Positions 2,757 through 62,994 of a stretch of DNA of 64,000 bases are shown piece by piece. Position 1 is the stretch's first letter; the number at the start of each line of letters is the position of its first letter. This stretch comes from Halorubrum sp. GN11_10-6_MGM. GTDB lineage: Archaea; Halobacteriota; Halobacteria; Halobacteriales; Haloferacaceae. Both the position numbers and the translations under genes were made by a program. The stretch is taken from assembly GCF_005435165.1 (NCBI RefSeq), contig NZ_SGUC01000016.1, forward strand, positions 1-64,000, written 5' to 3'. The notes beneath the pieces were generated by a model that ran no database searches, had not been told where the DNA came from, and saw only the letters and a list, made by a program, of their open reading frames with translations.

Positions 2757-3092
2757 AGAACACCTCCAAAACCCCAGCCGCTCGGTGATGCGCAGTTACT
2801 GTTGCGACTAACACCTCCAAAGCCCCAGCCGCGAGGACTCGCACGACTCGCTGCGCTCCTCGGTCGCTCACTCCGTTCGCTCCCTGCGGTGCTTACGTCG
2901 TCGGGCTTCGTCCTCGCGACTGCCCCTTTGAGTCCCACCCCGCACCGCACAGCGACCGCACCTCACGCCTCCCCAGCCTCGTCGCTCACGCCCTGCGGGC
3001 GTTCGCGACTCCCTCGCGCGTGCTCCTCGCGGCCGCCTTCGGCGGCACGCTCGGTGGCACGCGCCACCGCACCGCCGTCGTTCATTTATAAA
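2757..3092 (-). repeat. Dispersed intergenic repeat element, copy A (minus orientation)
   Basis: Fills the gap between the Cmi4-like and Cas4-like genes. Read on the minus strand it starts with the palindrome TTTATAAA (3085-3092), then a hairpin with a GAA loop (3032-3046), a helix with tandem G.A mismatches (2981-3009), the family block GAGGCTGGGGAGGCGTGAGG (2961-2980), a long inverted repeat (arms 2910-2918 and 2830-2838) and two tail units with cores at 2817-2828 and 2766-2777, 51 bp apart. It has no coding potential that I trust. The other copies are B, C, D and E. Confidence 0.85.
3085..3092 (+). promoter_or_regulatory. TATA box for the Cas4-like gene, shared with the head of repeat A
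   Basis: TTTATAAA is self-complementary and lies about 26 nt upstream of the GTG at 3115, the spacing of a leaderless haloarchaeal promoter. The same eight bases are the head of repeat A on the opposite strand, so one box may drive transcription in both directions. Confidence 0.6.
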
Positions 3093-4480: not shown

Positions 4481-4561
4481 ATGACGCGAGACGAACGCGT
4501 TCGTTCGGAGGATAGAGGAAGTCGCCTCACGGCGGCTGGCCGCGAAATTCTCCGGCGATAA
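4481..4561 (+). CDS. Possible 26-aa leader ORF upstream of cimA
   Basis: A 26-codon ORF beginning MTRDERVRSEDRG and ending GREILRR, placed at leaderless distance from a good TATA box and 70 nt before the TTG start of cimA. It is rich in Arg and has one Ile and two Leu codons near its end. The ORF is too short to judge by coding statistics. It might be a translated leader for the branched-chain amino acid gene, or the true cimA start may lie elsewhere with this ORF accidental. Confidence 0.35.
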   Translation: MTRDERVRSEDRGSRLTAAGREILRR

Positions 4562-12683: not shown

Positions 12684-13003
12684 TACTTATAAATAGGACC
12701 GCAGTGGCGCGCGCCTCCGAGTAGCCGCCGAAGGCGGCCGCGAGGAGCACGCGCGCGGTCGCCGGCGCTATGCGCCGGCTGCCAGAGTGACCTTCGATCC
12801 CCCGCTGGAGTCGCGAGCGGTTGGGCGACCGAAGGGAGCCCAGAGGGAGCGACGAGGCTGGGGAGGCGTGAGGTGCTGTGCGGTCGCGGTCGAGCGGGAC
12901 TCGAAGCGGCAGTCGCGGGGCGGTGTCCGTGTCGATCGGTCGCTTATAATCGATCACCACATCGTCCAGCCGAGCGACTGGGGCTTCGGCGGTGTGAGCC
13001 GCT
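12684..13003 (+). repeat. Dispersed intergenic repeat element, copy B
   Basis: Lies between ilvA and a convergent gene. The head CTTATAAAT is at 12685-12693. The hairpin with GAA loop is at 12724-12738, and an extra hairpin with 8-bp arms and TAT loop occurs around 12761-12779. The tandem-G.A helix is at 12810-12853 with an 11-nt loop nearly identical to copy E. The family block is at 12854-12873. Two tail units are spaced 69 bp apart (CGGTGT at 12921 and 12990); the first has lost its CTGGGGCTTC core but keeps CTTATAA at 12943-12949. Confidence 0.85.
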
Positions 13004-28536: not shown

Positions 28537-28700
28537 TTTAAAACGAACGCCGACGCCGACCGCCCACGTCGGCGCGTGCCGGCGAGCGGTCCCTCGGACC
28601 GCGAGCCGCCCGCGTGAGGGAGGCGGCGGTCCGGCGCGGCCCCGCCCGCGCCGGGCCGCCCGCCGAGGCTGGGGAGGCGCGAGGCACACGCGCGGCTGGC
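28537..28700 (+). repeat. Dispersed intergenic repeat element, copy C (short form)
   Basis: Sits between the convergent MBL and L40e genes. It has a head with GTTTAAAAC, the shared segment GTCGGCGCGTGCCGGCGAG, a 7-bp hairpin with CTC loop (28586-28602), a long GC-only hairpin (about 28622-28662) where the other copies have the G.A helix, and the family block at 28665-28684. The tail repeats are absent, so this copy is truncated or a variant. Confidence 0.75.
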
Positions 28701-38864: not shown

Positions 38865-39120
38865 TTATAAACACACCGCGGTGGCGCGTGCCTCCGAGGC
38901 CGCATCGCGGCCGAGGAGCGCGCGCGAGGGACGCCGCGAGCGCGGAGCGCGAGCGGCGAGGCTGGGGAGGCGCGAGGTGCGGTGCTGTGCGGTGCGGGGC
39001 GGGCCTCGCGGCTGGGGCTTCAGCGGTCGTGTTGGAGCCGGTGACCGCGTAGTGCCGAGCGGCTGGGGCTTCGGCGGTCGTGCTCTCGACACCGACCGCG
39101 TCGTAGCGAACGACTGGATT
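38865..39120 (+). repeat. Dispersed intergenic repeat element, copy D
   Basis: Lies between kynU and the helicase gene. The head TTTATAAA is at 38867-38874 and the hairpin with ATC loop at 38898-38912. The tandem-G.A helix (38932-38958) is perfectly symmetric: CGCCGC-GA-GCGC-gga-GCGC-GA-GCGGCG. The family block is at 38958-38977. Three tail units start at 39012, 39063 and 39114 (51-bp spacing), the last one degenerate. From 39121 to 39252 I see only a TATA-like box near 39213-39219, likely for the helicase. Confidence 0.87.
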
Positions 39121-39252
39121 TCCCGAAGCGTTCGCCGCCGATGTACCGGTAGCCGTTGGGAACCGACCGATAGCACCACCAACCACCTAGTAGCGTATTT
39201 CGTACAGCGACGGGCTTAATCGCCCGAGCCCCCAACGTCCGACGATCAGTTA

Positions 39253-60941: not shown

Positions 60942-60992
60942 GCCCCGAGCGCGACGAATCTAGTTATAAATAGTCGCCGAGACGACAAGAGG

Positions 60993-61475
60993 CATTTATA
61001 TACCGGCGGTCGGCGCGTGCCGGCGAGCGGCGCTTCGCGCCGCGAGTCGCACGCGCGAGGGACGTCGTGAGTGACGGGCGACCGGAGGGAGCCCGGAGCG
61101 AACGGCGAGGCTGGGGAGGCGTGAGGCTGCGGTGCGGGGCGGGACTCGAAGGGGCAGTCGCGAGGCGGGCGCAGGCGACGTAAGCACCGCAGGAACGAGC
61201 GGAGCGAGTGACGAGGAGCGCAGCGAGCGTGCGCCCGCCTCGCGACTGGGGCTTCGGTGGCGTTCGTGTCGATCAGCAGTTTACAAGCAGAACCGATCTC
61301 GTACAGCCGAGCGGCTGGGGCTTCGGCAGTGTTCGTGTGGCTCAGTGATTCATAAGCGAAGAGAACATCGTATAGCCGAGCGGCTGGGGCTTCGGCGGTG
61401 TTCGTGACGATCAGCGATTTATAAGAAACAGCTACGTACTGCCGAGCAGGTCGGGCTTCGGTGGTCTCCGACTCG
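60993..61475 (+). repeat. Dispersed intergenic repeat element, copy E (longest copy)
   Basis: Lies between convergent genes. The head CATTTATATA is near 60993; another TTATAAATA lies at about 60963. It has a 7-bp hairpin with TTC loop (61027-61043), the helix with two tandem G.A motifs (61063-61107; 11-nt loop 61080-61090) and the family block (61107-61126). A 15-bp inverted repeat (61159-61173 with 61230-61244) encloses 56 nt. Four tail units follow. The remaining bases to 61537 contain nothing recognisable. Confidence 0.87.
61246..61461 (+). repeat. Tandem 69-bp repeats in the tail of element E
   Basis: The core CTGGGGCTTCGG starts at 61246, 61315, 61384 and (altered) 61450, so the spacing is 69, 69 and 66 bp. 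Each of the first three units has a TATA-like sequence about 34 nt after the core: TTTACAAG, TTCATAAG and TTTATAAG. Each unit can form a small stem of GCCGA with TCGGC around the GGCTGGGG loop. The 69-bp unit equals the 51-bp unit of copies A and D plus 18 nt that include this box. Confidence 0.85.
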
Positions 61476-62773: not shown

Positions 62774-62994
62774 TACCGGCCACCCCCGGATCGAGGGGTC
62801 CGGACGACGGGGAACGGCGGGGAGCCGGAGCGAGTCGAAGCGCCGGGGCGGGTCGAGACGACTGCGGAGCGGGACACGACGGCAGAGCGGGACACGACGG
62901 CAGAGCGGGACACGACGGCAGAGCGGGACACGACGGCAGAGCGGGACACGACGGCAGAGCGAGTCGGGGCGCGTCCGGGGAACCGACCGCTCAT
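62773..62994 (-). CDS. Repeat-bearing 73-aa ORF between TrkA-C and antiporter genes
   Basis: The ORF starts MSGRFPGRAPTR, continues with six copies of RSAVVS and ends TPRSGGGR. Its ATG overlaps the TGA of the TrkA-C gene (ATGA), and its TAG overlaps the antiporter GTG by one base, so all three reading frames abut exactly. The peptide is very basic and Ser/Val-rich. No homologue is known to me. It may be a real small protein, or merely a bridge that lets ribosomes travel between the two genes. Confidence 0.45.
   Translation of the reverse strand: MSGRFPGRAPTRSAVVSRSAVVSRSAVVSRSAVVSRSAVVSRSAVVSTRPGASTRSGSPPFPVVRTPRSGGGR
62869..62958. repeat. 18-bp tandem repeat, five exact copies
   Basis: The unit GCGGGACACGACGGCAGA starts at 62869, 62887, 62905, 62923 and 62941, with partial units at both ends. 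Because 18 is a multiple of three, copy-number change keeps the minus-strand ORF open. It is unrelated in sequence to elements A-E. Confidence 0.95.

Follow-up and report, generated by a model that had tools for sequence, protein, structure and literature searches.

A three-hairpin extragenic element with a variable-number tail in Halorubrum

Between the 3' ends of two convergent genes, near the end of the 64,000-nucleotide stretch of Halorubrum sp. GN11_10-6_MGM DNA analysed here (contig NZ_SGUC01000016.1, positions 1 to 64,000; hereafter the window), lies a tandem array in which the core CTGGGGCTTCGG occurs at 61246, 61315 and 61384 and, in decayed form, at 61450, giving spacings of 69, 69 and 66 bp. 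TRF describes this array, in what we call copy E, as a repeat of period 69 with a score of 248. Similar arrays are found in copy A, on the minus strand, with cores at 2817 and 2766 (a spacing of 51 bp); in copy D, with cores at 39012 and 39063 (51 bp) followed by a decayed CTGGATTTC at 39114; and in copy B, where a CGGTGT motif recurs at 12921 and 12990, 69 bp apart, together with one core at 12978. These tail-unit positions in the four copies had been given in a first-pass annotation of the window, and they were borne out by re-reading the sequence and by the TRF period in copy E. The boxes named there (TTTACAAG, TTCATAAG and TTTATAAG in copy E and CTTATAA in copy B) were all found as well, and among the tail units of the window copies such TTTATAA-like boxes occur in the long ones only. 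Taken alone, the 12-mer core is not commoner than chance, with 12 matches at two mismatches allowed against 10.2 expected from shuffles; it is nevertheless real, given the array, its context and its copies throughout the genome. A separate tandem repeat of 18 bp, ACGACGGCAGAGCGGGAC, lies at 62858-62961, with 5.8 copies and 97% matches by TRF.

The tandem units form the 3' tail, variable in number, of a structured element that is dispersed outside genes, measures roughly 330-500 bp and contains three hairpins (Table 1). Its head is followed by GGTGGCGCGTGCC with hairpin 1, then by hairpin 2, by the conserved block GAGGCTGGGGAGGCGTGAGG, by hairpin 3 and lastly by the tail. The 3' arm of hairpin 3 ends in the first tail core, and every tail unit holds another copy of the 3' half of this hairpin (CTG-GGG-CTTYG). 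In copy B, the tail core at 12978-12989 is the sole 3' partner left for the 5' arm, and the covariance model of hairpin 3 matches 12899-12989 at 33.1 bits.

Table 1. Coordinates of the element copies in the window and of the parts of copy E
Feature	Position	Strand	Remarks
Element copy E, whole	60964..61470	+	Head, three hairpins, tail; nhmmer score 196
Copy E head boxes	TTATAAA 60964-60970; TTTATATA 60995-61002	+	
Hairpin 1, copy E	61012..61056 (ends approximate)	+	GCGCGTGC...GCACGCG, inner tandem GA/GA loop; MFE fold
Hairpin 2, copy E	61063..61109 (ends approximate)	+	Variable stem, GA/GA loops; MFE fold
Hairpin 3, copy E	61144..61257	+	CGAAG-GGG-CAG ... CTG-GGG-CTTCG; class-wide module; covariance model
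Tail unit 1, 69 bp	61246..61314	+	Begins with hairpin 3 3' arm core; box TTTACAAG at 61280
Tail unit 2, 69 bp	61315..61383	+	Box TTCATAAG at 61349
Tail unit 3, 66 bp	61384..61449	+	Box TTTATAAG at 61418
Last decayed core and tail end	61450..61470	+	Core GTCGGGCTTCGG
Element copy A	2758..3091	-	Head TTTATAAA; three hairpins (hairpin 3 at 2817-2933); one 51-bp tail unit, no box
Element copy B	12687..12995	+	Hairpin 3 5' arm kept (from 12899); tail box CTTATAA
Element copy D	38865..39125	+	Hairpin 3 5' arm lost; 51-bp tail units without box
Weak decayed element remnant	28567..28684	+	30 bits; aligned remnant at the same site in a relative (G051)

The first and third hairpins covary. For hairpin 3, 40 distinct sequences from its commonest length class keep 97.8% of pairs, and both partners have changed at 24 of the 39; in controls, sliding the partner reduced pairing to 26-48%, and shuffling it to 86%. 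An alignment of 36 sequences of this hairpin shows compensatory changes at 22 of 37 pairs. Hairpin 1 keeps 98.5% of its pairs, with double changes at 9 of 17 (58 sequences, commonest length class). RNAalifold and our own pair counts agree. Hairpin 2 was compared by eye in the MFE folds of four copies (E, A, L002 and L004). Hairpin 3 is about 116 nt long and stands on a conserved foot, ACTCRAAGGGG / GGGGCTTYGG, in which the CRAAG/CTTYG covariation comprises 48 G-C, 142 A-T, 6 G-T and 1 A-C combinations; the apical loops have three bases in the folds. Additional short GC-rich hairpins lie within the element hairpins of L239, L244 and site G of G065, as if one hairpin had been inserted into another.

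The unpaired columns of hairpin 3 are also strongly conserved: GGG opposite GGG is invariant (40 of 40), and tandem GA faces GA in most internal loops, the main GA columns being kept in 37-40 of 40 sequences. Since these mismatches are conserved on the plus strand of the element only, and since hairpin 3 of copy E (model hit at 61146-61259) scores 123.4 bits on the plus strand against 38.1 bits on the minus strand, the plus strand is probably the one that folds, either as RNA or as single-stranded DNA. Template-switch correction at replication can keep long palindromes paired and thereby mimic compensatory change, which calls for caution, but the conserved mismatches speak against such correction as a full account. 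When the 5' arm was compared with tail cores, the bases formed Watson-Crick pairs in 104 of 125 comparisons (16 of 20 in the window's own genome and 88 of 105 in the named set), with 8 G-T wobbles and 13 A-C mismatches, kinship being included in these counts. A tracking of the 5' arm by the tail cores was considered, and we draw no claim from it because shared species origin is still contained in the 125 comparisons.

In the 864 kb sampled from the window's genome, the element is present in 45 copies and makes up 2.1% of the sequence. This sample consists of stretches of five large contigs together with the window and was not picked for tails; a profile search of it returned 50 hits, 47 once merged, of which 45 passed the score filter. 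A first look at the same genome had yielded 224 candidates, of which 40 places (43 rows) were scored and all matched. None of the 47 merged hits lies inside a called gene, although at two of them a few bases are shared with the end of a gene and a third has its start 4 bases within one. Gene calls came from a simple dicodon script, so the gene orientations given here are approximate.

By blastn, the element was detected in all 23 genomes of the same genus, the window's own included, and weak matches were obtained in other genera, in 3 of the 16 genomes searched. A much wider spread is seen with the covariance model of hairpin 3, which matches 60 of 77 haloarchaeal genera (214 of 292 genomes), every one of the 35 genomes listed for the window's genus being among them. 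When 60 genomes were drawn from the phylum, 6 of the 7 from the window's order matched, and none of the 53 outside this order did. Among the matches listed in an exact-motif scan, the record titles are nearly all Halorubrum. A Pyrinomonadaceae MAG contig (L085, JACDCK010000024.1, 5797-5816) carries an exact motif of the Halorubrum type and is possibly misbinned. The element is not viral on these searches: viral contigs searched with the exact pattern gave no matches, nor did a phage set searched for the element, and two plasmids carry an element match.

In G068, a genome of another genus, GACTGAAAGGGGC...GGGGCTTTC hairpins lie between genes, and the loci displayed are free of a tandem tail; at locus L305 of genome G029 the 3' motif is repeated. 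On the loci viewed, the tail is thus mainly a Halorubrum feature. Homologues of hairpin 3 at the G068 loci (L327-L332, L336 and L337) often lie in inverted pairs, head to head on either side of a conserved CCGG..CCGG spacer, in a REPIN-like manner. A comparison with Rfam gave no match to the element at the gathering score, the best chance match having an E value of 1.8 and none falling below 1; the only match in the window at the gathering score is the leuA-Halobacteria RNA (RF03001) at 4501-4553 on the plus strand, with 73.4 bits.

Comparison of individual sites in five relatives, over aligned blocks of mostly 83-95% identity, reveals both long retention and turnover between species. Where the site was covered, relatives carry the element at A in 3 of 3 cases, at B in 4 of 4, at E in 5 of 5 and at D in 1 of 4, and two further sites are empty in the window's genome and filled in relatives, site F in 2 of 4 and site G in 4 of 5. 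At site E the stems differ wholesale among species yet stay complementary. The 17 occupied loci at this site, including the window's own, have core spacings of [69,69], [57,57], [57,57,72], [63], [54] or none, as read with one strict fixed core pattern that misses decayed cores. Together with the near-identity often seen between adjacent tail units, this variety at an orthologous site backs the earlier suggestion that the array grows and shrinks by whole units. Sites F and G, when occupied and empty species with much-diverged flanks were compared by eye, showed no target-site duplication, terminal repeats or clean empty site. Within the element head at site G of G051:C1 (stretches L265-L267), there is an insert of about 200 bp with terminal inverted repeats CGGTCGCGTTAAGTTA, which is MITE-like.

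The tail units had first been described as existing in two forms, of 51 and 69 bp. A count over copies from several Halorubrum species, taking core-to-core distances within 40-90 bp, replaces these two forms with a ladder from 48 to 75 bp in steps of 3 bp: the 153 spacings are 48 (1), 50 (1), 51 (19), 54 (19), 56 (3), 57 (59), 60 (1), 61 (2), 62 (1), 63 (15), 66 (7), 69 (22), 72 (2) and 75 (1). Multiples of 3 account for 146 of the 153 spacings and for 80 of 87 clusters formed at 80% identity; binomial figures for this rule overstate its significance because the units share ancestry. Within the hairpin part no residue is preferred in this way, the distances dividing among the three as 73/59/59 from the start of hairpin 3 to the core and as 52/46/49 from the head to the core, and the 3-bp rule is therefore not a general bias of insertions and deletions. 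The step extends to the end of the tail, where the last core is followed by the next box at 33, 36, 39, 42 or 45 bp in 71 of 85 box-bearing tails (174 tails examined).

Such steps could be expected if the tail is, or once was, translated into a repeated peptide (frame ..WGFGGV..), and the restriction of the rule to the tail, with no counterpart in the hairpin-part distances, speaks for this reading. The units themselves argue against it. In the commonest type, differences between units are even over the codon positions (3523/3535/3481), and the bias that the 63-69-bp types do show falls elsewhere than on the third position of the WGFGGV frame. Stops in that frame interrupt 42 of 44 box-bearing 57-bp units and are depleted only in the 69-bp type (2/16 versus 6.3 expected, nominal P 0.014). 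The other nominal depletions concern, weakly, the 57-bp type in another frame (P 0.052) and the 63-bp type in a reverse frame (P 0.031); all these P values are uncorrected over about 42 comparisons, and most frames have stops near the expected rate. The one tail translation scanned contains no Pfam family at the cut-off. On the stop counts, codon-position differences and Pfam scan, a coding tail was rejected as the present state, the nominal stop depletions persisting, and we regard translation past or present as a highly improbable source of the ladder. We leave the 3-bp rule, a sharp regularity that no consistent codon signal accompanies, without explanation.

The TTTATAA box is concentrated in the element. 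Among 42 occurrences in the 864 kb, 29 lie in elements, 11 in other intergenic DNA and 2 in genes, a density 13-fold higher in elements than in other intergenic DNA (29 in 18 kb versus 11 in 89 kb). The box is absent from the clusters of 51- and 54-bp units (0 of 12 and 0 of 11), is present in 21 of 31 clusters of 57 bp at +42, which is 15 bp ahead of the next core, and in most clusters of 63, 66 and 69 bp is found at +34, which is 29, 32 or 35 bp ahead of the next core. The proposal that the longer form adds a TATA-like box holds in so far as short units lack the box and most long ones have it; because the box positions differ among unit types, the 69-bp unit is not simply a 51-bp unit plus a box. 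Unit lengths are not random, nor is a conserved box wanting, but the spacings form the 3-bp ladder in place of two fixed forms, and the tail is just the end of a far larger structured element. What does not stand from the picture of a modular array of conserved boxes is their fixed spacing: the enrichment is strong, 2.1% of the sequence holding 29 of the 42 occurrences, but box and core are 15 bp apart in one unit type and 26-41 bp (26, 29, 32, 35 or 41) apart in the other.

The first-pass annotation read the array as a set of promoters or binding sites, and an array in which each long unit is a promoter bound by TBP/TFB has a precedent. The class I intergenic repeats of the halovirus HF2, 56-58 bp long, carry AT boxes and act as promoters in Haloferax, where they drive a reporter with a start 26 bp after the box (PMC8707807). 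In keeping with such a function, TTTATAA is enriched, and a few genes of the 864-kb sample have a TTATAA 29-31 bp ahead of their start codon, the position of 7 among the 12 occurrences that lie within 60 bp of a start. Given the variable distance from box to core, however, an HF2-type start about 26 bp downstream would land at differing places, and units of 51 and 54 bp have no box at all. The head is no more suitable: a TTTATAA-like box is present there in only 23 of 40 copies of the window's genome (and in 65 of 115 other copies), mostly 15-24 bp ahead of the head motif, so that transcription beginning some 26 bp further on would do so within hairpin 1. Orientation points the same way, as only 4 of 20 box-bearing tails face a gene start and 16 point to a gene 3' end, compared with 13 of 23 boxless tails pointing to a 3' end (difference not significant, P 0.12). 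Overall, 14 of 45 tails are directed toward a gene start (P 0.008 versus one half) and 31 toward a gene 3' end. A fixed promoter geometry was rejected on spacing and orientation, the reading as a set of promoters is not supported for these units, and a promoter array in any form seems quite unlikely to us. The box is probably a constituent of the element and not a fixed-position promoter of the neighbouring gene.

High copy number, intergenic placement, three hairpins on one strand (hairpins 1 and 3 covarying), the presence of hairpin 3 across the class and turnover between species characterize this element, and we consider it probable that it is a REP-like structured extragenic repeat with a variable-number tail, working like the bacterial REP/BIME repeats. 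The strand with the purine mismatches would fold as RNA or as transiently single-stranded DNA and might be recognised by a host factor; recombination may exchange stems and tails among copies, and unequal exchange between cores could lengthen or shorten the tail. Tail cores may also supply alternative 3' arms for the single 5' arm, an arrangement of the kind seen in copy B. Some observations sit less well with a REP-like repeat: the 3-bp ladder (146 of 153) is not predicted for a passive repeat, neither a target-site duplication nor a clean empty site was seen at sites F and G, the Y1 transposase search described below gives no support for a RAYT-like mover, and a host function could underlie the long-term retention at sites A, B and E. 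The ladder would find a place in a tentative and rather unlikely extension, in which the structured element is bound on its purine-mismatch strand by a dedicated host protein or RNP and the Halorubrum tail is read by a machine that moves in 3-nucleotide steps and tolerates only 3-bp changes between cores. In that same tentative reading, such a machine might be a ribosome that translates the tail whatever the peptide, a recombinase filament with three nucleotides per subunit, or a modular 3-bp reader of DNA.

The strongest rival to the REP-like repeat is a family of functional structured RNAs that act in 3' UTR processing, stability or termination, or in trans, and are not selfish repeats. The covarying stems and mismatch motifs conserved on one strand, the class-wide hairpin 3, the old retention at sites A, B and E, and the 31 of 45 tail ends directed toward gene 3' ends are all consistent with this. 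Nevertheless, the head lies next to a gene 3' end in about half of the cases only (24 of 46), the wholesale rewriting of stems between near species also fits palindrome-correcting recombination, and Rfam is without a match, so we rate a functional RNA family as unlikely. A non-autonomous DNA transposon, either a MITE or an IS200/IS605-type PATE, would account for the high copy number, the intergenic positions and the presence or absence at the same site between species, and a PATE is reported in Halorubrum lacusprofundi (PMC10544981). Against mobility of this kind, by-eye comparison of sites F and G, with their diverged flanks, showed neither terminal repeats nor a duplicated target, no linked transposase was found, and the phage set gave no match. 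A search for the Y1 transposase (Y1_Tnp) found none in three element-carrying genomes (G015, G285 and G179), and of 13 Y1 loci in six other genomes, one has a hairpin 3 match inside its 1.5-kb flanks; a RAYT-like mover is thus not supported, and we hold a DNA transposon to be very unlikely. A CRISPR-like array was set aside because the sequences between cores are semi-conserved.

Several known systems resemble the element in part. Rfam structured RNAs such as leuA-Halobacteria share with it a covarying secondary structure in haloarchaea, and no family there matches the element. The HF2 class I repeats (PMC8707807) are likewise from a Halorubrum system, are similar in length (56-58 bp), conserved in position and provided with an AT-rich box; they are dispersed single promoters with a fixed start, whereas the tail units are tandem, have a variable distance from box to core and form part of a hairpin element. 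PATE and other IS200/IS605-derived elements (PMC10544981) are short palindromic repeats found in Halorubrum, from which our element appears to differ, as it has no phage-set match and no transposase link was found. In open-access full text (PMC), no description of the element was found. A covarying hairpin that occurs in most sampled haloarchaeal genera, is high-copy in every Halorubrum genome searched and has no Rfam entry would represent a class-wide annotation gap. The element also offers a direct way to test whether the extragenic repeats of prokaryotes are selfish DNA or serve as functional RNA, and a small set of experiments could resolve the 3-bp spacing rule.

The bacterial REP repeats have a short unit of about 20-40 nt with a GTAG/GGAG-type tetranucleotide at the hairpin foot and, in REP, BIME and REPIN systems, are found flanking a RAYT-type Y1 transposase. 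Our element is much larger (a hairpin of 116 nt in an element of about 330-500 bp), has several hairpins and a spaced tail, shows no linked Y1/RAYT gene in the genomes searched, and has a foot of the form ACTCRAAGGGG / GGGGCTTYGG in place of the GTAG/GGAG type. On size, foot motif and RAYT link it is therefore not a member of the REP family. With 45 copies in 864 kb and palindromic stems, it is a high-copy extragenic palindrome, as REP-type repeats are, and the likeness to REP/BIME/REPIN repeats extends to an extragenic location, copy numbers of the order of a hundred or more, palindromes mismatched on one strand, composite groups and, in G068, hairpins often paired as inverted repeats.
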